A stretch of 64,000 nucleotides of DNA from contig JFAX01000006.1 in assembly GCA_000585015.1 (NCBI GenBank), positions 63,696 to 127,695 of the forward strand, given 5' to 3'. Source of the DNA: Candidatus Accumulibacter adjunctus. GTDB taxonomy: Bacteria; Pseudomonadota; Gammaproteobacteria; Burkholderiales; Rhodocyclaceae. The notes under the pieces are model-generated. The model ran no database searches. It had not been told where the DNA came from and worked only from the letters and a program-made list of their open reading frames with translations. Below are positions 35,561-48,296 of the stretch, in pieces (the first letter of the stretch is position 1; every line of letters begins with the position of its first letter). Position numbers and translations under genes: made by a program.

Positions 35561-37612
35561 TCACTCGGCCAGCGGTTCGTGGATCGTCACCCGCGCTGCA
35601 CGGCCACGAACCGCCACGCGGTCAAGCTCGCGGCACGGCCAGTCGCCGAGCTGCTGCCGCGTCGCCTCACCGACGATCACCCCGGCCTCATAATGCGCCG
35701 ACAGACCCTGCAAGCGTGCGGCCAGATTCACGGCATCGCCAAGCACGGTGTAGGCCCGTCGATGCCGCGAACCCATGTCGCCGACGACCATGACGCCGCT
35801 GTTGATGCCGATACCGATGCGCAGCGGTGGCCAGCCACGCACGGCCAGCAGCCGATTGAGGGCCGGCAACGCTGCCTGCATCGCCAGGCCGGCGGCAACC
35901 GCGTGCCGCGCGTGCAGCGGGTCGGCGACTGGCGCCCCCCAGAAGGCGACGATGGCGTCACCGACGTACTTGTCGAGCGTTCCCCTGTGCGCCCGGATGA
36001 CATCGGTCATCGCCGACAGGTAGTCGTTCATCATCGTCGCCAGCTCGTCGGCCGGCATCTGTTCGGCAATCGTCGTGAACCCACGGATATCGGCGAAAAG
36101 CACCGTCAATTCGGCACTGCGACCGCGCATGTCGTAGCGCTCGGGATCACGGCTCATCTCGTCCACCAGCTCCGGTGGTACGTACTGACCGAAGAGCGCC
36201 GTCAACCGGCGGCGGGCGCGCGACTCGACGAAGAAGCCGAAGAAGAGTTGCAGCGCCAGGAGCAGCAGCAGCAAACAGAGGCTGGCGGCAGCCGGCAGGA
36301 CCAGCCCGACCGCTCCCCAGGCGAGCAGGATGAGGACGGCCAGCAGGACGACGAGCATCACCGTCAGACCGACCGCAGCCTGGGGTGACAGTCGCGGCAG
36401 CAGTCGCAGCAACAGCAGAGCGAGAAGAGACAGCACGGCCACTTCGAGCAGCGTCGTCCAGGCTGGCGCGTGCGGCAGCGCTCCGGCGAGCAACCCGGCG
36501 AGCAGATTGGCATGTACCTCGACTCCCGGAAGCAGTTCATTGACTGGCGTGACCCGCTGATCGAGCAAACCCGGAGCGCTGCTGCCGAGGAGAACGATCC
36601 GCCCGCGCAGGGCGTCGCCAGGCAGCCTGCCGGCGACGACGTCGGCCGCAGAGTGGTAGTGGAATCCTCCCGCCGCCCGGCGAAACGGCAGCAATACGGC
36701 GCCTTGGCGATCCACCGCGATGAGGCGCGAGCCGCGCGTGCTGTGCAACTCGATGGCGGTCAGCGGCGGCCCGGTGGTCTGCCCTGGCAGCGGGTCGGCG
36801 AAATGCAGCCGCAGAGCCGGATCACCGAGGAGCAGTCGCGCCATGATCAACGGCAGTGCACCGTGGATCTGATCGGCATGCCTCGCCAGCAGCCAGCCGC
36901 GCCGAACCACTCCGTCAGGATCGACCGGTGCGCCAAGGAAACCGCCGCCCGCTGCCACCTGCTGCAGCAACGGCAGGTTGGCAGCATGACCCGGCCAGTC
37001 TGTCAGACCGGTTGCCTGAGCGCGCTCGCCAGCGTCGATCGGCAAAGCCGGCGGCAGCGCACCGCTCCTCGTCGCAGCCGCGCCGGTGGACAGGTGGAAA
37101 CCAAGCACCACCGGATGTCGCCGCAGGACGTCGGCGAGTCGGCCATCGTAGTCGAGCGTCGGCCGCAGGCCTTCGACGGCGGCGCAAAAGGCAGCGTTCT
37201 GTCGCAGGGGCCCGCGTGTCAGTGCCTCCAGAACGGGCAACCCGGAGCTTTCGTCGGCCTCCGCCAGGATGAGGTCGAGACCGAGCAGCAGCGCACCGTA
37301 ATCGGTGAAGATCCGTTCGATCAGCTCGGCCAGCCGGGCACGGTTCCACGGCCAGCGCCCGAGCTCGGCCAGCGAACGCTCATCGACATCGACGACGACG
37401 ATGCGCTCATCGATCGGCGCCTGCGCAAACCAGCGCACGCGGGCATCGTACAAGGCCGCGTCGAGTCGGTTCAGGACATCGAGCTCGATGAAACGCAGGC
37501 TGTGCGCCGAGAGCACACCGAGCAGCAGCAGCCCAAGAAGACCGCGCCAACTGGCAACTGAGAGGCCCCGTCCGATCTTCGCCGCCCAGTCAGCGAAGCT
37601 TGATCTCGACAC
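35561..37612 (-). CDS. CHASE2-domain class III adenylate cyclase
   Basis: A membrane cyclase of 683 aa predicted to make cAMP. One N-terminal helix is followed by a large periplasmic CHASE2 domain (RIVVVDVDERSLAELGRWPW, then FLGAPVDPDGVVRRG), three helices (about residues 400-480), and a cytoplasmic class III catalytic domain: VLFADIRGFTTIAEQ and YVGDAIVAFWGAP with both metal Asp residues, and LDKYVGD with the adenine-specifying Lys. The start is uncertain: GTG at 37612 overlaps the preceding gene by 23 bp and lacks a clear ribosome-binding site. It is third in an operon with fecR-like and ompA-like genes, which suggests a common envelope-sensing unit. Confidence 0.88.
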   Translation of the reverse strand: MSRSSFADWAAKIGRGLSVASWRGLLGLLLLGVLSAHSLRFIELDVLNRLDAALYDARVRWFAQAPIDERIVVVDVDERSLAELGRWPWNRARLAELIERIFTDYGALLLGLDLILAEADESSGLPVLEALTRGPLRQNAAFCAAVEGLRPTLDYDGRLADVLRRHPVVLGFHLSTGAAATRSGALPPALPIDAGERAQATGLTDWPGHAANLPLLQQVAAGGGFLGAPVDPDGVVRRGWLLARHADQIHGALPLIMARLLLGDPALRLHFADPLPGQTTGPPLTAIELHSTRGSRLIAVDRQGAVLLPFRRAAGGFHYHSAADVVAGRLPGDALRGRIVLLGSSAPGLLDQRVTPVNELLPGVEVHANLLAGLLAGALPHAPAWTTLLEVAVLSLLALLLLRLLPRLSPQAAVGLTVMLVVLLAVLILLAWGAVGLVLPAAASLCLLLLLLALQLFFGFFVESRARRRLTALFGQYVPPELVDEMSRDPERYDMRGRSAELTVLFADIRGFTTIAEQMPADELATMMNDYLSAMTDVIRAHRGTLDKYVGDAIVAFWGAPVADPLHARHAVAAGLAMQAALPALNRLLAVRGWPPLRIGIGINSGVMVVGDMGSRHRRAYTVLGDAVNLAARLQGLSAHYEAGVIVGEATRQQLGDWPCRELDRVAVRGRAARVTIHEPLAE

Positions 37613-38192
37613 GGCGATTGCGGGGCTCGGCGACGCCGTCCTCGGTAAAGACCACCGGCTCGCGTTCGCCCCGACCGACGACGCTGATCGCAGCGGGCGC
37701 AACGCCGGCCTGGATCAGCTGCTCTCGCCCCGCCTCGGCGCGGCGCAGCGACAGCCGGTCATTGGCCTCGGAGCTGCCGACGCGGTCGGTATGGCCGATG
37801 ACGATGGCCTCCGGCGCGGGCAGGCTGGCGAGTTGCTCACGAATCATCGGCAACTTGCTGCGCGACTCGGGAGTCAGGACGGTGGTTCCGGTTTCAAAAT
37901 GGACGACGTAGACGCGCGGGCGTGCCGGTTGCAGGTCGAGCAGCCGGCCATACGCATCGCGCACCATGCGTGCACTGCTGGTCAGCCTGTGCGGCGTGCC
38001 GCCGTGGACCTCGACCCCGCTGTATGGCTCGGAGAGCAGGATCTCGCCACCGGCAGCCGTCACCGAAAGCGCGCCGACGCGACCGTCCGGCCCGGGCAAC
38101 AGCAGAACGTGGTCGGTCACTCGCGAACAGGCGACCGAACAGGTGGCGACTGCCAGCCAGACGACGCAGGGGACGATCCGGACGCAACTCAT
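37590..38192 (-). CDS. OmpA-family peptidoglycan-binding lipoprotein
   Basis: A 200-aa envelope protein. It has a signal with possible lipobox cysteines (ATCSVAC, residues 17-22), a middle beta-rich region, and an OmpA/MotB-type C-terminal domain with HFETGTTVLTPESR, VIGHTDRVGSSEANDRLSLR and RNRRVEIKLR. It should bind peptidoglycan from the outer membrane. Its ATG overlaps the fecR-like stop (ATGA) and its end overlaps the cyclase start, so the three genes are tightly coupled. Confidence 0.9.
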   Translation of the reverse strand: MSCVRIVPCVVWLAVATCSVACSRVTDHVLLLPGPDGRVGALSVTAAGGEILLSEPYSGVEVHGGTPHRLTSSARMVRDAYGRLLDLQPARPRVYVVHFETGTTVLTPESRSKLPMIREQLASLPAPEAIVIGHTDRVGSSEANDRLSLRRAEAGREQLIQAGVAPAAISVVGRGEREPVVFTEDGVAEPRNRRVEIKLR

Positions 38193-38807: not shown

Positions 38808-39239
38808 TCAGCGCGCCCGATAGAGCAGGGTCGGATGGACCTCTTGCAGAATCTTCTGCATCGCGCGGCGCCGCTGCAGGTTGAGAATGATCGGCGAGCG
38901 GGTGTTGGCGGCAATCGTGCCACCCGCCGCCGCGTCGCGATAGACGATGATCACCACCGCCGCATCCTCGGCACGCTCCAGCTCGAGTTGGGCGCAATCG
39001 GCATCGGACAGCTCGATCTCGTACTCGAGGTCGAGCGTCCCCGGGTCAACGATCGGAAAGGCAACGGCCACATCGTCCAGAGACTGCAGCCAGAAGACTG
39101 CCGGCTGCGGCCCTTCCTGGTGGAAGACCTTGAATCGCCGACAATCGGGAAAACCGGCAGGGCCAACGGCAAAGGTGAACACGCTGTCCGGATCGACCGG
39201 CACATCCTTGAGCCCAAAGCGCTCGAGATCAATCTTCAT
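38808..39239 (-). CDS. fliW: Flagellar assembly factor FliW
   Basis: A 143-aa protein of the FliW family. In other bacteria FliW binds flagellin and antagonises the translational repressor CsrA. Conserved segments are [37 protein letters not shown] and [26 protein letters not shown] precedes the ATG. Neither csrA nor fliC is adjacent, unlike the common fliW-csrA pair. No sigma-28 promoter was found before it. It is divergent from tex. Confidence 0.92.
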
Positions 39240-39555
39240 CGCTTACCCCCAGTCATGGCAGTTCGAAGCAGCCGCCCGAAAGCGCCAATTTAACCTCTTT
39301 CATCGCCCGACGGCAATTCTCCTGGCGGCCAACCGCCGCCAGCGCAAGCCGGCCGACTTGAGTTTTGCCGCCGGATTCTGCATAGTCGTGCCGCTTCGTG
39401 GCGCGCTCCGCGCTCCCGGGGGAGATCCGGCAGCCGGGGGTCGGCGTCGCCGGCCTCTGCCTGCCGCCATTCCGTCGTCGCTGGCTGCCGTCACCGGACG
39501 TATCGTGCACCGCCAGCGCGAATCCACCGCCAGCCAACCAGGTCCCGTAGAGTCC
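39240..39555. other. Divergent fliW-tex spacer
   Basis: A 316-bp region without a supported gene. It holds a candidate vegetative promoter for tex (39358-39386). On the fliW side only a poor sigma-28-like sequence was seen. The tex frame stays open upstream of its chosen start but shows no conserved protein features there. Confidence 0.6.
39358..39386 (+). promoter_or_regulatory. Sigma-70 promoter candidate for tex
   Basis: TTGAGT, a 17-bp spacer, then CATAGT. The spacing is ideal and each hexamer keeps four or five consensus bases. The leader would be about 160 nt long. Confidence 0.38.
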
Positions 39556-41880
39556 ATGCCCCGCTTTGCAGATCGAGATGTCTCCCGCCTGATCGCGGCA
39601 AGAATCGCCGACGAGATCGGCTGCCACCCACAACAGGTTCTGGCAACCGCCGCCCTTCTCGACGAGGGCGCGACAGTCCCCTTCATCGCCCGCTACCGCA
39701 AGGAAGCGAGTGGCGGTCTCGACGACACCCAGTTGCGGCTTCTCGACGAGCGGCTCAACTACCTGCGTGAGCTCGAAGAGCGGCGCAGCAGCATTCTCGC
39801 CTCGATCGACCAACAAGGCTGCCTGACGGCCGAACTGGCGGACGAGATCATCGCCGCCGAGAGCAAGCAGCGGCTGGAGGATCTCTACCTGCCGTACAAG
39901 CCGAAACGGCGCAGCAAGGCGCAGATGGCCCGCGAGGCCGGTCTCGCCCCGCTCGCGGAACTGCTGCTGACGGCACCGACGCACTCGCCCGACACCGAGG
40001 CGGCGTGTCATCTGAACCCGGAGGCGGGTTTCGCCGACACGCGCAGCGTCCTCGATGGCGCGCGCCAGATCCTGATGGAGCGCTTCGCCGAGGAACCCGA
40101 GCTGCTGGCGGAACTGCGTGCCCATCTGGAAGCCCACGCGCACCTCAAGGCGACGGTCATCAGCGGCAAGGAAAGCGAAGCTGCCAAGTTTCAGGACTAC
40201 TTCGACTACGCCGAGGCGCTGCTCGCAATCCCCTCACACCGCGCTCTGGCGCTGTTTCGTGGCCGCAACGAAGGGCTGCTGCAACTCACGCTGCTGCTGG
40301 ACAGCGAACTCGACCCTGCCCAGGCAGCGACGCGCAATCCCTGTGAAGCCCGCATCGCAGTGCGTTTCGGTGTTCGCGATGCGGGACGTGCGGCCGACAG
40401 GTGGCTTGCCGACACGGTTCGCTGGGCCTGGCGAATCAGGATCGCGCCGCACTTGGAGACGGAGTTGCTGGGTGCGCTGCGCGAGCGCGCCGAAGCCGAA
40501 GCGATTCGCGTCTTTGGCAACAACCTGCACGACCTTCTGCTCGCCGCTCCGGCTGGCCGGCGGTCGACGATGGGCCTCGACCCGGGCCTGCGAACGGGTG
40601 TCAAGGTGGCGGTCGTCGACCCCACCGGCAAATTGCTCACGACCACCACGGTCTATCCGCACGAGCCACGCCGGGACTGGGAGGGAGCGTTGCACAGTCT
40701 GGCCGTCCTCGCACGGCAGCATCGGGTCGATCTGATCAGCATCGGCAATGGCACCGCGTCACGCGAGACCGACCGCCTGGTCGGCGAACTCATCCGGCGG
40801 CATCCGGAGATGCACCTCTGCAAGGTCGTCGTGTCGGAGGCTGGCGCTTCGGTCTATTCCGCCGCGGAGTACGCGTCGCGCGAGTTCCCGGACCTCGATG
40901 TCAGCCTGCGCGGCGCCGTGTCGATCGCCCGCCGCCTGCAGGATCCGCTCGCCGAACTGGTGAAGATCGATCCCAAGGCCATTGGCGTTGGCCAGTACCA
41001 GCACGACGTCAGTCAGAACCGCCTTGCCAAGGCGCTCGATGCGATCGTCGAGGACTGCGTCAATGCGGTCGGGGTCGAGGTCAACACCGCTTCGGTGCCG
41101 CTGCTCGCCAGTGTCTCCGGCCTCAGCGCGACACTGGCGGCGAACATCGTTGCCCACCGTGACCAACATGGTCCGTTCCGCAACCGCCAGCAACTGCGGG
41201 CAGTGCCGCGCCTCGGCGAGCGGGCCTTCGAACTGGCGGCCGGCTTCCTGCGCGTCGGCGAAGGCGACAACCCGCTCGACCGCTCGGCCGTACATCCGGA
41301 AGCCTATCCCGTGGTCGAGCGAATCCTCGCCGACACGCGAAGGAGCATTGCCGACCTGATCGGTGACTCACGGACGCTGCGGGCGTTGCGGGCCGAGAAG
41401 TACGTCGACGAGCGCTTCGGGCTGCCCACCGTCACCGACATCATCAAGGAACTCGAGAAGCCGGGTCGCGACCCGCGCCCGGAGTTCCGTGTCGCCGCCT
41501 TCCGCGAGGGCGTCGAGACGATCAGGGATCTGCGACCGGGAATGATCCTCGAAGGCGTGGTCAGCAACGTCGCCAACTTCGGTGCCTTCGTCGACCTGGG
41601 CGTCCACCAGGATGGCCTGGTGCACGTCTCGGCAATCGCCGAGCGCTTCGTCAAGGACCCGCGTTCGGTGGTCAAGGCCGGCGACGTGGTGACCGTCAAG
41701 GTGCTCGAGGTCGACCTGGACAGGAAGAGGATCGCGCTCAGCATGCGCCTTGCTGACGAGCCGCCGGGTGTCGCCAGGATAGTGCCGGCAACGCCCTCCG
41801 GCCGCGGACGCCAGCGGCAACGGAAGCAACCCGAAGCAGCCAGCGCAATGGCCAGCGCCTTTGCCCGGCTGCGACAGTGA
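39556..41880 (+). CDS. tex: Tex family RNA-binding protein
   Basis: A conserved nucleic-acid-binding protein (774 aa) associated with transcription and toxin-gene expression in Bordetella. The N-terminal helical region contains [20 protein letters not shown]. The YqgF/RuvX-like domain contains [20 protein letters not shown]. Helix-hairpin-helix motifs follow ([20 protein letters not shown]). The C-terminal S1 domain is [20 protein letters not shown]. The tail is basic. Start [20 protein letters not shown] at 39556 fits the family; the frame is open further upstream without conserved sequence. Confidence 0.95.
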
Positions 41881-42127: not shown

Positions 42128-44935
42128 CTAACCGCTTCGATAGTGATCCACGATCAGGCCAAACGAGGCTTCAACGCTGCAGCCCAGTCGCTGCGCCATC
42201 TGCAGCAGGAACTCGTTTTGCCGGCTGCGGACGTTGACCCTGCAGAGCTCCACCGCCTCAACGCCAGGCCCGCCGTCGACGGCCACCGGCGCCGGCAACG
42301 GTGCCGGCAGCGGAACTTGATCGGCGATATAGGTGGCGAGAAGATGGCGCGCGGCAGCGGACAAGCTGATCCGTTGCGCGTCGGCGATCAGGCGCAGTGT
42401 CGCCAGTTGCCGGCCCCGGAAGTGGACCGCGACCTGCCGCCAGTCGCCGTCCGGCATGGGAGGATGGTCCGGCCGATCGTGCTCGCCGGCCGGCTGCGGC
42501 CCGCCAGTGGGCTGCTGATACACGACGCCACCTCTCGAGCCCGGCCGACGACCGCTCGCCAGGCGCATTACCGGTCGTTCCAGCAAAAGGAAGGACAGTG
42601 CTGCGACGGCCATCGAGCCAGCCAGACTCAGCGCCGCGAACAGCCACCAGAACTGGCCCAGGGACAGATCGGCGAGCCCCAGCAGCCACGCGAAGAGCTT
42701 CTGCACAGGGTAATGGAAGATGTAGAAGCCGTAGGAGATCAAACCCAGCCGACGCAGGGCGGCGGCTTCCAGAATGCGCCTGGCGATGGCCGAGTGTGGC
42801 GTCGCGAAGATCATCGCCGCCAGTAACAACGGTACGAAAGGCCAGTTGTAGTGACCGTGGGGCGCCTGCAGGATATCGTCAAGTGGCGTGCTCAGTATCA
42901 GCAGCACCGCCACGGCGCAGGTGCAGAAGACCCAGTCGGCGCGCGACCTGAATGCCCCGGGAAACCGGGCAGGCCTGCCAGGTGCGCTGGCTACGAAGAG
43001 CAGGGCAGTCGCAATGCCGATCAGGAAGTAGGTCAGATGCGCCAGCGTCGAATAGGTCAGGACGAAGCTGGCCGGTCCCGAGATGTACAGCGAGAAGGGC
43101 CAGATCAGGCTCGACTCAATCGGCCACTGGTCACGCGCCAGCAGGAACGAGAGCAGACCGTAGTTCGCCAGATAGCTGCCGACGGCGAGCGACGAAACCC
43201 AGATCAAGGCAGTCCTGAGCGAAAGTCGCCGCAGAGGCAGCATCAGAAACGGCAGCAAGAGATAGAACTGCATTTCGACCGCGAGGGTCCAGAAAGGCGC
43301 GTTCAGGCTGAGGATGTGCGAGTCGTTGAGGTTGTAGAGAAAGACGATGTGCGATAGCACGTTGTTGATGCTCGGTGCGTGCCCCCTCGCGAGCAGGATG
43401 GCAAGCAGACCGAACAGACACAGATAGTAGGCCGGCAGGATGCGCGCCAGGCGGCGCACGAAGTAGTTGCGGACATCGACCGGCGGTCCCGACCCATGCG
43501 CCTCGCGCCAGAATGGCATGGACAGGAGAAAACCGCTGAGGACGAAGAAGAGTGCGACGCCGCTGTTGCCATTGGCCAGCCAGCGCCCGAGATCGAACGG
43601 CCCAAGCTTGGCATCCAGCCCGACCATCTGGTTGAAATGCACGCCAAAGACGCCAAGCGCTGCAATCGCACGCAGCCCGTCGAGGCCGGCAAGGCGAGGA
43701 TTGCCGGCAACGGCAGCGGTGGCCGAGGGCACCGGTACCGGCACCGGTTCCGGTTCCGGTAGCGGGACGACGCGTGCGGCTGCGGCTACCCTCTTCTGGC
43801 TGTCCGACGCCGTTCGCACACTGGCTTGCCTGTCGATCGCGGCAAGACCAACAGCGACGATCACGGCCAGCAGCGGATCGGTGATGTCAGGGGTCCCCCT
43901 GCGCGATACGATCTGCGCCGCTTCCTGAACGCTGACAGCCAGCAAGACAACGACGGCTGCCCCCGGCCACGTGCCGCCACCGGCACGAAACAGCCACGCC
44001 GCACCACCATAGAGAAACAGCTTGCGCAGCAGTGCCGCCGAGTTTGACGCCATGTTTCCTTCGAGCAGGCTGGCGAAGGGCACCCAGTGGAAGTCCCTCG
44101 CCCATGCCGCGGCCTCCCAGGGGAGCAGATTCGCGGCGAGCGTTGCCGCCAGCAGAAGGGCGCCAAGCAGCAGTGGTGACAAGCGCGATCGCCCGGCAAG
44201 CCAGACCAGGCCGGCAGCCACACTGCCGGAGACTTCAGCGAGAGTGATTTCGCCGCCGACGATGAAGGGTTGTGGTGCAAGGACCGCCAGCGGCAGGAAC
44301 GGCAACAGCTTGCCGAGGCGAGTAGCCAGCGACGGGCGGTCGAGCATGTGGAGCACGGCCAGCCACGCCACGCAGTACAGAACGGCATCCGGGATCGCGA
44401 AGACAGGTTGCTGCAATAACGGCTTCAATGCGGTCCGCACGGCCGACAGGTCCAGCGTCGGCACCAGGGGCAGGAGTTGCGAGATGATCCACAGGCCGGC
44501 GAGATACAACGGAACGTCGGCTCGATGCGTCGGCGACAAGCCCAGAGCCAGCCGCTTCACGCCCGGAATGCGGGCCAGCAGGAGGCCGCCAGCGATCCCG
44601 ACGGCGTTGAGGCAGACATCGACCAGAGACGGATCACGCGTCGGCAGCGCCAGTTGTCCCAGTTGCAGCGCCAGAGCCAGGACGAGGCCGGCCAGGAAAA
44701 GTCCCAGGGTTGACACGGCATCCACCTGCCGACGGACGAGCGCGAAGTCGCCGCAGAAACCGAACGGCACGAAGAGGGCGAAGTTGCCGAGCATGTCACC
44801 GCGCAACGTCAGATGCAACGACGCCAGTGCGGCCAGCCGGCTCCGCAGTTCGTCGGGCGACGGCGCAAGGAAGTCGAAGGGATACAGCGAACCGTAGACG
44901 ATCAGCAGGATCACCGCGGCAAAGATCAGCCTCAC
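42128..44935 (-). CDS. VanZ-like / acyltransferase-3 membrane fusion with two C-terminal RHH-like segments
   Basis: A 935-aa protein joining unrelated parts. Residues about 1-370 are polytopic with VanZ features (LRGDMLGNFALFVPFGF, then a second half with LLEGNMASNSAALLRKLF). A Pro-rich linker (about 391-404) follows. Residues about 415-780 are an acyltransferase-3 domain (LDGLRAIAALGVFGVHF with the R-x10-H motif, FFVLSGFLLSMPFW, then LLERPVMRLASG at its end), expected to O-acetylate or O-acylate a glycan in the inner membrane. Residues 832-872 (WRQVAVHFRGRQLATLRLIA and onward) and 897-935 (CRVNVRSRQNEFLLQMAQRL and onward) each look like a ribbon-helix-helix DNA-binding unit. GTG at 44935 overlaps the upstream stop (GTGA). 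Membrane and acyltransferase calls are firm; the RHH call is by pattern only. Confidence 0.85.
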   Translation of the reverse strand: MRLIFAAVILLIVYGSLYPFDFLAPSPDELRSRLAALASLHLTLRGDMLGNFALFVPFGFCGDFALVRRQVDAVSTLGLFLAGLVLALALQLGQLALPTRDPSLVDVCLNAVGIAGGLLLARIPGVKRLALGLSPTHRADVPLYLAGLWIISQLLPLVPTLDLSAVRTALKPLLQQPVFAIPDAVLYCVAWLAVLHMLDRPSLATRLGKLLPFLPLAVLAPQPFIVGGEITLAEVSGSVAAGLVWLAGRSRLSPLLLGALLLAATLAANLLPWEAAAWARDFHWVPFASLLEGNMASNSAALLRKLFLYGGAAWLFRAGGGTWPGAAVVVLLAVSVQEAAQIVSRRGTPDITDPLLAVIVAVGLAAIDRQASVRTASDSQKRVAAAARVVPLPEPEPVPVPVPSATAAVAGNPRLAGLDGLRAIAALGVFGVHFNQMVGLDAKLGPFDLGRWLANGNSGVALFFVLSGFLLSMPFWREAHGSGPPVDVRNYFVRRLARILPAYYLCLFGLLAILLARGHAPSINNVLSHIVFLYNLNDSHILSLNAPFWTLAVEMQFYLLLPFLMLPLRRLSLRTALIWVSSLAVGSYLANYGLLSFLLARDQWPIESSLIWPFSLYISGPASFVLTYSTLAHLTYFLIGIATALLFVASAPGRPARFPGAFRSRADWVFCTCAVAVLLILSTPLDDILQAPHGHYNWPFVPLLLAAMIFATPHSAIARRILEAAALRRLGLISYGFYIFHYPVQKLFAWLLGLADLSLGQFWWLFAALSLAGSMAVAALSFLLLERPVMRLASGRRPGSRGGVVYQQPTGGPQPAGEHDRPDHPPMPDGDWRQVAVHFRGRQLATLRLIADAQRISLSAAARHLLATYIADQVPLPAPLPAPVAVDGGPGVEAVELCRVNVRSRQNEFLLQMAQRLGCSVEASFGLIVDHYRSG
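43731..43760. repeat. In-frame hexanucleotide repeat in the fusion linker
   Basis: Five hexamers of the form (A/T)CCGG(T/C) lie in the VanZ-acyltransferase gene and encode the PEPVPVPVP part of the linker on the minus strand. Copy-number change would keep frame and alter linker length. Confidence 0.6.
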
Positions 44936-45993
44936 GCCGCTGGCACCCCGAGCTTGCCTTGGCCCGCTCTCCCTGCCCGCCACTCGACCGGTCGCCAGCC
45001 CGGTATCGCCAGCTTCAGACCCGGCGCAAACAGCAGAGCGAAGACGATCTGTACGGCTGCCCAGGAGGCAATCCCGGCTGCCGCCGACCAGTCGCCCGTG
45101 CGCTCACCGGTCAGCAGGAACTGCAGGGCGGAGAAACGATGACCGTATTTCTCGACATGCCCTTCCAGGCCCTGTGCTGCAACCAGACAGCCGAGAGGGA
45201 GGAGCAGCAGACCAAGACACAACGCGAGCCGCGGCGACAGCAACCGGATCATGGCTCCCCAGGCCAGCGCCGCCCCCAGTGCCAGCAGGAACAGCGCGAG
45301 GTACAGCCAGACCATCGCCGGGATGCCCAGTGGTGCCCGCCGTGCCATCAGTTCCACCAGGTTGTCTGTCACCGCATGGTCAACGACGATCAGCTTGCAC
45401 AACCACAACAGGCCGATCGATATCGCCAACAAAGGCAGCCTGTTGGGTGCTCGCCGCCCGTAACTGACGTAGTCTCCGAGCAGAACCACGGCGAGTGAGA
45501 CCAGGATCGGAATCGGCGCATAGAGCCCGATGTAACGGGCGCCCATCTCGATGTAGTCGGCCGCCTTCGGGTACAGGGCAATCCCCTGCTGGACCACGGG
45601 CGCCAGGTTCTCGGTGCCCTGCCAGCCGTTCTGTGTCCAGACCGGTACACCGAGGATGTCGTGCAGGCTTTCCGGGGTGACGCTCAAGCTCAGGAAGGCG
45701 AAGCTGACCACGCTCACGCCGACGGCCAGCAACGGCAACAGGAGGACTGATGCAGGCCGCCGCCGCACGGCCCGCACCATGAACCCGCTGCCGATACCCA
45801 GCCAGCAGACGCAGAGTCCGAACATCAGCCAGTTGAGTGCGTTGCCGCCCCGCCACATGAGTTCTTTCAGGTTGCCGGGTGCGCCGGGCAACCTGCCAAG
45901 GAGGCCGACCATGACACCAACGAGGAAGGCGACAACGGTCACCAACAAGCCGAGGCGCAACCAACGCAGCCAAGCGCGGCCGAAAGGCAACAT
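44932..45993 (-). CDS. Polytopic membrane protein of unknown function
   Basis: A 353-aa protein with about eight hydrophobic helices and a periplasm-like loop (SVTPESLHDILGVPVWTQNG, after about residue 105). I recognise no family. Two in-frame ATGs are close together; the second (45993) has GAGG at 7 nt, whereas the first overlaps that Shine-Dalgarno sequence. Its stop overlaps the GTG of the VanZ-acyltransferase gene, so the two products are probably made together and may act together at the inner membrane. A sigma-70 promoter is predicted at 46167-46196. Confidence 0.75.
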   Translation of the reverse strand: MLPFGRAWLRWLRLGLLVTVVAFLVGVMVGLLGRLPGAPGNLKELMWRGGNALNWLMFGLCVCWLGIGSGFMVRAVRRRPASVLLLPLLAVGVSVVSFAFLSLSVTPESLHDILGVPVWTQNGWQGTENLAPVVQQGIALYPKAADYIEMGARYIGLYAPIPILVSLAVVLLGDYVSYGRRAPNRLPLLAISIGLLWLCKLIVVDHAVTDNLVELMARRAPLGIPAMVWLYLALFLLALGAALAWGAMIRLLSPRLALCLGLLLLPLGCLVAAQGLEGHVEKYGHRFSALQFLLTGERTGDWSAAAGIASWAAVQIVFALLFAPGLKLAIPGWRPVEWRAGRAGQGKLGVPAA

Positions 45994-46529
45994 GGCCATT
46001 CCTCACTGACGGTTAGAGAAGCCTGTGGCGCGGGGCCGTCGTACGGACCGGCCCAGCCCTCGCGACCGCGCAACCGGATCGCTGTCAGCCGTCTGCGGCG
46101 CGGTGCCGCGGTGTCGCGTTGTCGTGCCGGAGGGATGCAGGATCGGACATCCCGTGATCGCCGAAGAGTATATGGGCACCGATCGACGGCCGTCAACGCG
46201 TCCCACGGGGTTCGATGCCGGCAGGCACCTTGATCGACTGAGGACGCGAATGACCCGCGCCGCGTTGCCGTTGTGGGACACCATCGGCACGCGCAGCAAG
46301 CAGTGAAATCCTGCACAGCAGCGGCCACGAGTTTAGCGTAGCATTCACCGCTGACCGGAGCGACCTCAGCCAGCAACCCGAGCAGGAGAACTCCGGCAAG
46401 GGGCCTGCGGCCTGCGCTCCATGCCCCGCGAACCCGAAGATGCCTCACTGCCAGACGATCGCTGCCGGATTATCGGGCTCCCGCGGCGACCGACACCCCC
46501 GCCAACCCTGCCCGGCGAACCCGAAACCC
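45994..46529. other. Divergent spacer between membrane-protein operon and asparagine-synthetase-like gene
   Basis: About 536 bp with no supported gene. It contains one sigma-70-type promoter on the minus strand (46167-46196). A plus-strand sequence near 46220 looks somewhat like a sigma-54 site but lacks the -12 C. A short sequence cgaacccgaa occurs twice (about 46429 and 46516) before the plus-strand gene; its meaning is unknown. Confidence 0.55.
46167..46196 (-). promoter_or_regulatory. Sigma-70 promoter of the membrane protein / VanZ-acyltransferase operon
   Basis: On the minus strand TTGACG, an 18-bp spacer, then TATACT. Both hexamers keep five of six consensus bases. The start would be near 46160, leaving a leader of about 165 nt before the ATG at 45993. 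Confidence 0.65.
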
Positions 46530-48296
46530 ATGAACGCAAGACTATCCGGCCAGCTGGACCTGACCGAACTTCTCGACTCTGCAACGCCTCCGCAGCGGCT
46601 GCAGTCGAGTGCACTGCGGGGGGAGCAGATGGCGCGTGACGACTCCGCCATCTGCTTGCTGATCGGCTCGCCTGGGCTTGCCGGGCAAGGCACGGCCACG
46701 ACTGCCTCGCAGCCAGGTCTTGCTGCGGCGGTGTTGGCGGCTTGGCGCAAGCATGGTATCGATCTCACCTCGCACATCAGCGGCAGCTACGCGCTGGTCA
46801 TCGTCGACGCCGCGCGCAGGTCCGCGTTTCTCGCCGTCGACCGCTTCGCCATCGAAACGCTGTGCTACTTCACCGACGGCAAGATCCTCGCCTTCGCCGA
46901 CCGCGCCGACTGCGTCACGGGCCACGACCGGCAACTGGAGCCGCAGGCAATCTTCGACTATCTGTACTTCCACATGATCCCGGCACCGCGGACGATCTTC
47001 CGCCAGGTACGGCGATTGCCGGCGGCGCACGCGCTGCTCGTCGATCAGCAGGGCGTGCACGAGATCCGCCATTGGCGCTTGCGTTTCGACGAGGGTGGTC
47101 GTCCTTCCTTCGATGCCGCACGAGACTCGTTCCGCAGCCTGATCCGCGAATCCGTCGCCGAGCAGCTCGCTGGCGGGCAACGGGTCGGCGCCTTCCTTTC
47201 AGGCGGCACCGACAGCTCGACGGTCGCCGGCATGCTCTGCCAGATCACCGGTACGGCGGCTCCAGTCTATTCGATCGGTTTCGACGCCGCAGGTTACGAT
47301 GAGATGGAATACGCGCGCATCGCCGCCAGGCACTTCGGCTGCGAGCATCACGAATACTATGTGACGCCAGCCGACCTGTTGGCGAGCATCCCGGCCGTGG
47401 CCAAGCATCACGATCAGCCCTTCGGCAACTCATCGGCCCTGCCGGCCTATTACTGCGCGCAAGCCGCGCAGGCCGATGGCTGCAGCAGGTTGCTGGCTGG
47501 TGACGGCGGCGATGAACTGTTCGGCGGCAACTCCCGTTACGCCATGCAGCGTCTGTTCGAGTACTACCACAGCCTGCCGCAGGCGATCAGGCAGGCGATC
47601 GAACCGATGTGCGCGGACGGCAGTCCCTTGCGCCGGATCCCCGGCCTGAAGCAGGCGACCGGCTATGTGCGTCACTCGCGGGTGGAGCTGCCGGCCCGGT
47701 TGCAGAGCTTCAATCTGCTGCTGCAACTCGATCCGGCACAGGTGCTCAACGCGGACTTCCTGGCTGACATCGATCTGCACGAACCAGCCCGACACATGCA
47801 GGCAACCTGGGCCGAATGCCAGGCCCAGAGCCTGATCAACCGCCTGCTGGCCTACGACTGGCGCTATACCCTCGCCGACAGCGACCTGCCGAAGGTTCGG
47901 GGTGCGGTACAGATGGCCGGGATTGCGGTTGCCTACCCGCTGCTCAGCGATCGCTTGACCGACTTCTCGATGACCCTGCCAGCTGACTGGAAACTCCGGC
48001 GCTTCAAGCTGCGCTGGTTCTTCAAGGAAGCCTTGCGCGGCTTCCTGCCCGACGAAATCATCAACAAGAAGAAGAAGGGTTTCGGACTGCCATTCGGCGT
48101 GTGGACCACGCGCAACCCGGCGCTGCTCGAACTGGCCCGGGATTCTCTCGATATGCTGGCAAAGCGGGGAATCGTCCGGGCGGACTTCGTCCACAGGCTT
48201 CTGCACGAGCACCTTCCGGAGCACCCCGGATACTTTGGAGAAATGGTATGGATCCTGACCATGCTCGAGCAATGGCTCCGCCGCGACGCAGCTTGA
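46530..48296 (+). CDS. Asparagine-synthetase homologue lacking the glutaminase cysteine
   Basis: A 588-aa protein with AsnB layout. The N-terminal part (about 1-210) follows the class II amidotransferase fold (SHISGSYALVIVDAARRSAF, VDRFAIETLCYF), but the protein begins MNARLSGQLDL rather than Met-Cys-Gly, so the catalytic Cys2 is absent and glutamine hydrolysis is not expected. The synthetase domain is intact: PP-loop AFLSGGTDSSTVAG, YSIGFD and LAGDGGDELFGGNSRY. It probably activates a carboxylate as the adenylate and joins it to ammonia or another amine. The genes around it suggest a glycan or sugar-acid substrate. Start MNARLSG at 46530; a frame extension upstream shows no Cys start either. 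Confidence 0.85.
   Translation: MNARLSGQLDLTELLDSATPPQRLQSSALRGEQMARDDSAICLLIGSPGLAGQGTATTASQPGLAAAVLAAWRKHGIDLTSHISGSYALVIVDAARRSAFLAVDRFAIETLCYFTDGKILAFADRADCVTGHDRQLEPQAIFDYLYFHMIPAPRTIFRQVRRLPAAHALLVDQQGVHEIRHWRLRFDEGGRPSFDAARDSFRSLIRESVAEQLAGGQRVGAFLSGGTDSSTVAGMLCQITGTAAPVYSIGFDAAGYDEMEYARIAARHFGCEHHEYYVTPADLLASIPAVAKHHDQPFGNSSALPAYYCAQAAQADGCSRLLAGDGGDELFGGNSRYAMQRLFEYYHSLPQAIRQAIEPMCADGSPLRRIPGLKQATGYVRHSRVELPARLQSFNLLLQLDPAQVLNADFLADIDLHEPARHMQATWAECQAQSLINRLLAYDWRYTLADSDLPKVRGAVQMAGIAVAYPLLSDRLTDFSMTLPADWKLRRFKLRWFFKEALRGFLPDEIINKKKKGFGLPFGVWTTRNPALLELARDSLDMLAKRGIVRADFVHRLLHEHLPEHPGYFGEMVWILTMLEQWLRRDAA

Follow-up and report, generated by a model that had tools for sequence, protein, structure and literature searches.

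The window analyzed here is a 64,000-nucleotide stretch of Candidatus Accumulibacter adjunctus (contig JFAX01000006.1), and positions are counted from its first letter. On the reverse strand, at 42128-44935, lies a gene whose product carries a VanZ region, an acyltransferase-3 (AT3) domain and a C-terminal tail of two predicted ribbon-helix-helix (RHH) units; it is referred to below as VanZ-AT3-RHH. The longest frame, 42128-44983, has no internal stops and encodes 951 amino acids from a GTG. Residues are numbered by this frame. A second GTG at 44935, residue 17 of the same frame, begins a 935-amino acid form, and the 935-residue numbering, used in an earlier sequence-only reading of this DNA, is lower by 16. 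The shorter form is the most likely product. GTG 44935 is preferred as the start over 44983 because the TGA stop codon of the upstream gene, p355, lies within GTGA at 44935-44932, and this 4-base overlap of start and stop is also present in A. conexus UW7 (GTGA) and in the genome G160 (ATGA).

Neighboring genes overlap at this locus, and other genomes encode VanZ, p355 and AT3 separately, as might be expected if an assembly error or a frameshift had joined two or three genes. The unbroken VanZ-AT3-tail frame recurs, however, in 4 further assemblies (two other Accumulibacter genomes, Dechloromonas and Azonexus), and the architecture is therefore not an assembly fusion. A chimera, the flaw that the sequence-only reading had named as fatal to its own proposal, is already contradicted by these intact homologs and has almost no probability left.

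The VanZ and acyltransferase-3 parts

All parts of the protein are encoded on the reverse strand. The first VanZ copy (residues 58-139; 44567..44812) matches Pfam VanZ at 38.9 bits, with a cut-off of 30.1. A weak second copy (approximately residues 298-375; 43859..44092) reaches 15.6 bits alone, below the cut-off, and its counterpart in the Dechloromonas protein reaches 13.9 bits. Compared with each other, the two copies give an hhalign score of 27.9, above 60 of 60 column shuffles (maximum 21.7). A fast-evolving Pro-rich linker (approximately residues 391-430; 43694..43813) leads to the AT3 domain (residues 432-796; 42596..43690), which matches Acyl_transf_3 (PF01757) at 100.3 bits, with a cut-off of 31. 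The combination of a VanZ region, a Pro-rich linker and a complete AT3 domain in one polypeptide, as first read from the sequence, is thus borne out.

AT3 proteins possess an R-x10-H motif in transmembrane helix (TMH) 1 and an RxxR motif in TMH3 (PMC9833829). Both are kept in 6/6 AT3 rows (R438-x10-H449 and R511xxR514 in the window protein), and likewise in the AT3 protein of the genome G1031. In its PF01757 match and in these motifs, the window protein resembles Oac and OafB (PMC9833829, PMC9558356). As for the ten TMHs of an AT3 domain, hydropathy picks up only the strongest helices, and the full-length model is of low confidence in this region. The motifs described for VanZ-1 are an Asn in helix 2, ExxQ in helix 3 and DxDDxxxN in helix 4 (PMC12419801). 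With helices assigned by eye, copy 1 has only N67, QxxQ and D122xxxN126, and copy 2 has E354xxQ357 and DxxD and is missing the final Asn. With QxxQ in copy 1 and no final Asn in copy 2, the VanZ part may or may not be catalytically competent.

The tail is predicted to be a single-chain ribbon-helix-helix pseudo-dimer

Beyond the AT3 domain, a linker (residues 810-847; 42443..42556) with a pLDDT mostly below 50 precedes RHH unit 1 (residues 848-886; 42326..42442) and RHH unit 2 (residues 912-950; 42134..42250), both assigned by predicted fold and profile comparison. The sequence-only reading had marked two strand-helix-helix segments in the tail (832-872 and 897-935 in its numbering, 848-888 and 913-951 here) and had called for structure prediction. 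The models show a strand followed by two helices twice. In the full-length model, unit 1 is composed of a strand at 848-855 and helices at 857-870 and 874-886, and unit 2 of a strand at 912-919 and helices at 920-933 and 937-950. A model of the tail alone matches these elements to within a few residues.

In a fold search, the closest structures to the tail model are DNA binders; the tail superposes on TraY over 89 residues and on single-chain Arc over 79. When compared with 30 RHH_1 domains, unit 1 gives an hhalign score of 29.0, and the maximum of 100 column shuffles is 15.2. Unit 2 scores 15.2, above the 95th percentile of its own 100 shuffles (10.8). Moreover, two small RHH_1 proteins were retrieved with the tail profile. 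The fold of the tail as a single-chain RHH pseudo-dimer is well supported by prediction. By analogy with TraY of the F plasmid (PMC12117103), the two units are expected to pair with each other inside a single chain, and the ribbon would therefore need no partner chain. TraY differs in that it belongs to the conjugative relaxosome and binds oriT; the window tail is 14% identical to it and sits on a membrane enzyme.

Several results weigh against this assignment. The score of unit 2 falls inside the range of its shuffles (15.2 versus a maximum of 16.35). The Pfam and NCBIfam libraries, a search that the sequence-only reading had proposed as a check, give the tail no RHH family match, and the tail profile retrieves no RHH chain from the PDB sequences. 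The best Foldseek E-value for the tail is 0.003, with none at or below 0.001, the tail alignment consists of 5 rows only, and confidence in the full-length model is low (pLDDT 61.5, pTM 0.42). The shallow alignment, the missing library matches and the Foldseek value would fit some other small alpha-beta module that the predictor has forced into a known fold. The score of unit 1 lies far above its shuffles, the tail profile finds RHH_1 proteins, and the full-length model shows the same elements as the tail model, all of which make such a module very improbable.

Other weak matches were treated as chance. In the PDB sequence search, the tail profile matched a tandem-repeat protein (two entries, E 0.02). 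Library matches to the tail were DUF2471, DUF6290, DUF7528, SAWADEE, NOD and DUF5500 (E 0.03-0.16). DUF6290, which may be RHH-like, matches 2 of the 5 tail rows with a best E of 0.095.

Distribution and selection

The genus genome set is complete, and those of the family, order and class are samples of larger groups. Within the genus, 5/28 genomes have matches at E <=1e-20: three full-length (the window's own genome, G152 and G160) and two to the VanZ part only. In the family, 6/395 genomes match at E <=1e-50, four of them full-length. The order yields 3/399 at E <=1e-60 (own genome, G200 and G704, the last in AT3 only), and the class 2/369 (own genome and G1031, the latter in AT3 only). The Azonexus homolog was added by a scan of genome contigs. 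The full-length set comes to five distinct proteins, and the tail is present in all five. In G704 and G1031, AT3 is a separate protein that ends shortly past the domain, and the fetched loci hold no tail match at E 0.01. Among plasmids, 38 records match, none over 80% of the query, and the 20 rows listed all fall in the AT3 part. When 150 genomes of the family were searched with the tail as a single sequence, 57/150 gave matches at E <=0.1. The match in the window's own genome was strong, the others were weak (best 0.0017) and some contained internal stops; this search was not used.

The ratio of nonsynonymous to synonymous substitution rates (dN/dS) was calculated by NG86 over regions of 22-376 codons, and the values for the short regions are rough. 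Between the window and G160, dN/dS is 0.29 for VanZ, 0.24 for AT3, 0.22 for unit 1 and 0.32 for unit 2, and the linkers give 0.60, 1.16 and 0.96. Between Dechloromonas and Azonexus, the corresponding values are 0.19, 0.12, 0.20 and 0.10, with linkers at 0.53, 0.55 and 1.06. The comparison of the window with Dechloromonas is near saturation (VanZ 0.28, AT3 0.17, unit 1 0.40, unit 2 undefined; linkers 1.61, 0.82 and 0.35). In two pairs, both RHH units are thus as constrained as the enzyme parts, or nearly so, and the linkers are relaxed. This selection joins the tail model, the fold search and the unit 1 profile in favoring the RHH reading of the tail.

The tail could also be a captured RHH regulator of two units that has lost DNA binding and only stabilizes the protein or keeps its fold. 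The tail diverges fast between lineages, with window and Dechloromonas 33% identical in unit 1, 28% in unit 2 and 64% in AT3, and unit 2 is distant from RHH profiles. Set against the low dN/dS of both units and the retention of the tail in every full-length homolog, such a loss is improbable.

p355 and the exopolysaccharide context

The upstream gene (44932..45999, reverse strand) encodes p355, a 355-amino acid hydrophobic protein with 8 hydrophobic windows and no matches in Pfam or NCBIfam. The Dechloromonas (L037) and Azonexus (L038) homologs carry p355 ahead of VanZ-AT3-RHH in a single fusion protein of 1290 and 1289 amino acids, respectively. In two other Accumulibacter genomes, G158 and G156, p355 is fused behind a tandem VanZ, and the 16-18 kb fetched there contain neither AT3 nor the tail. 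Neighbors were searched at one locus of this pair, that of G158, where the fusion is followed by AsnB and an exosortase-A-associated acyl-CoA ligase. G1031 carries AsnB, an AMP-binding match, VanZ, p355 and AT3 as separate genes on one strand, and in G704, the VanZ and AT3 genes are direct neighbors encoded on opposite strands, at a locus that also has a Wzy_C match. p355 is probably a partner family of exopolysaccharide (EPS) synthesis. The protein encoded at L079 7451-9901 joins tandem VanZ to p355 and represents this module in a different fusion order; its gene lies beside those for AsnB and an exosortase-A-associated acyl-CoA ligase.

In the window, a divergent AsnB-type amidotransferase gene of the EPS cluster lies at 46440..48296 on the forward strand, as found by family search. 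The cluster also contains Wzx-like, Wzy_C, FkbM, glycosyltransferase, aminotransferase-like and polysaccharide-deacetylase genes, named loosely, as several of the NCBIfam matches are below curated cut-offs. The Dechloromonas homolog faces EpsL-D-E-F-G, all above cut-off. The gene neighborhoods in the window and in Dechloromonas point to a role in EPS or a related surface glycan. Azonexus speaks against this, as no EPS gene was recognized among its listed neighboring open reading frames of at least 250 amino acids, which were inspected by eye with no family search.

Two further genes of the window were noted. A Tex protein is encoded at 38947-41880 on the forward strand, and its true start is probably well inside this longest frame because Tex_N matches only from residue 216 onward. 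A CHASE2-adenylate/guanylate cyclase protein is encoded near the EPS cluster at 35561-37702 on the reverse strand, and a very similar 713-amino acid frame, judged by eye, lies near the A. conexus homolog (L036 15151-17292).

Membrane topology, DNA binding and regulation

Both ends of the standalone AT3 protein Oac are cytoplasmic (PMC9833829). In the window protein, hydropathy finds no strong hydrophobic stretch after 783-801, and the full-length model places a disordered stretch (812-846) after a helix at 779-809. From these observations, we infer that the tail is cytoplasmic.

VanZ-AT3-RHH may therefore be pictured as a polytopic inner-membrane protein of EPS biosynthesis. From what is known of the two families, the VanZ part would handle the head group of a lipid-carrier-linked glycan, and the AT3 part would transfer an acyl group from cytoplasmic acyl-CoA to the glycan on the outer face. 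A flexible linker of approximately 35 residues would then connect the end of the last AT3 helix to a cytoplasmic single-chain RHH pseudo-dimer. While anchored at the membrane, the tail may bind DNA, the likeliest site being the promoter of the operon that encodes it or a different EPS promoter, and the occupancy or conformation of the enzyme would set expression. We judge this explanation, taken whole, to be evenly poised between right and wrong. The bolder proposal is that a membrane EPS enzyme acts as its own transcription factor, with the flexibly tethered pseudo-dimer allowing the lipid-carrier/acylation machinery to contact EPS promoters directly and to report substrate flux, so that neither a second messenger nor a two-component system would be needed. 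This we advance tentatively, expecting it rather to fail than to hold.

One sigma-70-like promoter (TTGACG-18-TATACT; 46167..46196, reverse strand), whose hexamers are conserved in A. conexus, lies upstream of p355 on the correct strand. A perfect palindrome of 22-24 bp, a candidate operator or hairpin, separates this promoter from the start of p355 in A. conexus UW7 (L036 6878-6901) and in G160 (L081 12128-12149). The window has only a degenerate version of it, and no regulon signal accompanies the palindrome; neither an operator nor a regulon is established.

RHH folds can bind proteins as well, as antitoxins do. The tandem RHH might be an interaction or oligomerization module that recruits EPS enzymes of the cytoplasm, or a regulator acting as partner, to the membrane complex. 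Consistent with such a role, unit 2 is acidic in Dechloromonas and Azonexus (isoelectric point [pI] 4.7), the strand residues of unit 1 that presumably point outward are variable (Q/A/H, Q/T/Q, K/R/S, K/R/C), and the gene module is rich in fusions that resemble complex building; the lack of an established operator also favors it. Unit 1, however, is basic in 5/5 homologs (pI 9.2-11.7) with S873, S875 and R879 invariant in all five, and the closest structures are DNA binders (PMC12117103). We regard a module of this kind as unlikely, but a substantial possibility.

Comparison with known systems

VanZ-1 domains fused to cytoplasmic DNA-binding RHH and helix-turn-helix domains have been described, and VanZ was suggested to act on transcription through them (PMC12419801). 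The window protein shares with these lipocone fusions a VanZ and a predicted cytoplasmic RHH in one chain and an EPS context, and a tandem VanZ with a degenerate second copy has been reported in betaproteobacteria in the same work. It differs in having AT3 between VanZ and RHH, a tandem pseudo-dimer, and p355 coupled or fused upstream; the RHH example of PMC12419801 itself may or may not belong to the family of the window protein. A 2022 review of AT3 proteins (PMC9558356) gives SGNH and alanine-racemase as common fusions, and the words VanZ and DNA-binding are absent from its text. The relevant passages of PMC11237479 present RHH regulators as separate genes and VanZ fused to a HAAS domain, and contain no VanZ-RHH protein.

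The sequence-only reading held that no protein of this architecture had been described. Among papers judged mostly by title and abstract, none was recognizable as describing AT3 with RHH or VanZ with AT3 and RHH, and to this extent the claim stands; its VanZ-RHH part had been anticipated in print (PMC12419801). The architecture that it observed is confirmed, and its interpretation is supported in part.

One-component membrane regulators of the CadC/ToxR type carry a winged helix-turn-helix on a single-pass protein. They resemble the window protein in having a membrane-tethered DNA-binding-like domain and differ in that the window RHH sits on polytopic enzyme domains.

Implications

The link from glycan state to transcription, including DNA binding by the tail, is put forward here as a hypothesis. 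If the tail binds DNA, a single polypeptide would connect the state of envelope glycan synthesis with gene expression, in organisms whose EPS is important for granular sludge. The published suggestion that VanZ domains may act on transcription through a fused RHH (PMC12419801) gains a concrete, well-delimited protein. In addition, the fusions of p355 with VanZ and AT3 tie an unnamed family of membrane proteins to EPS acylation.
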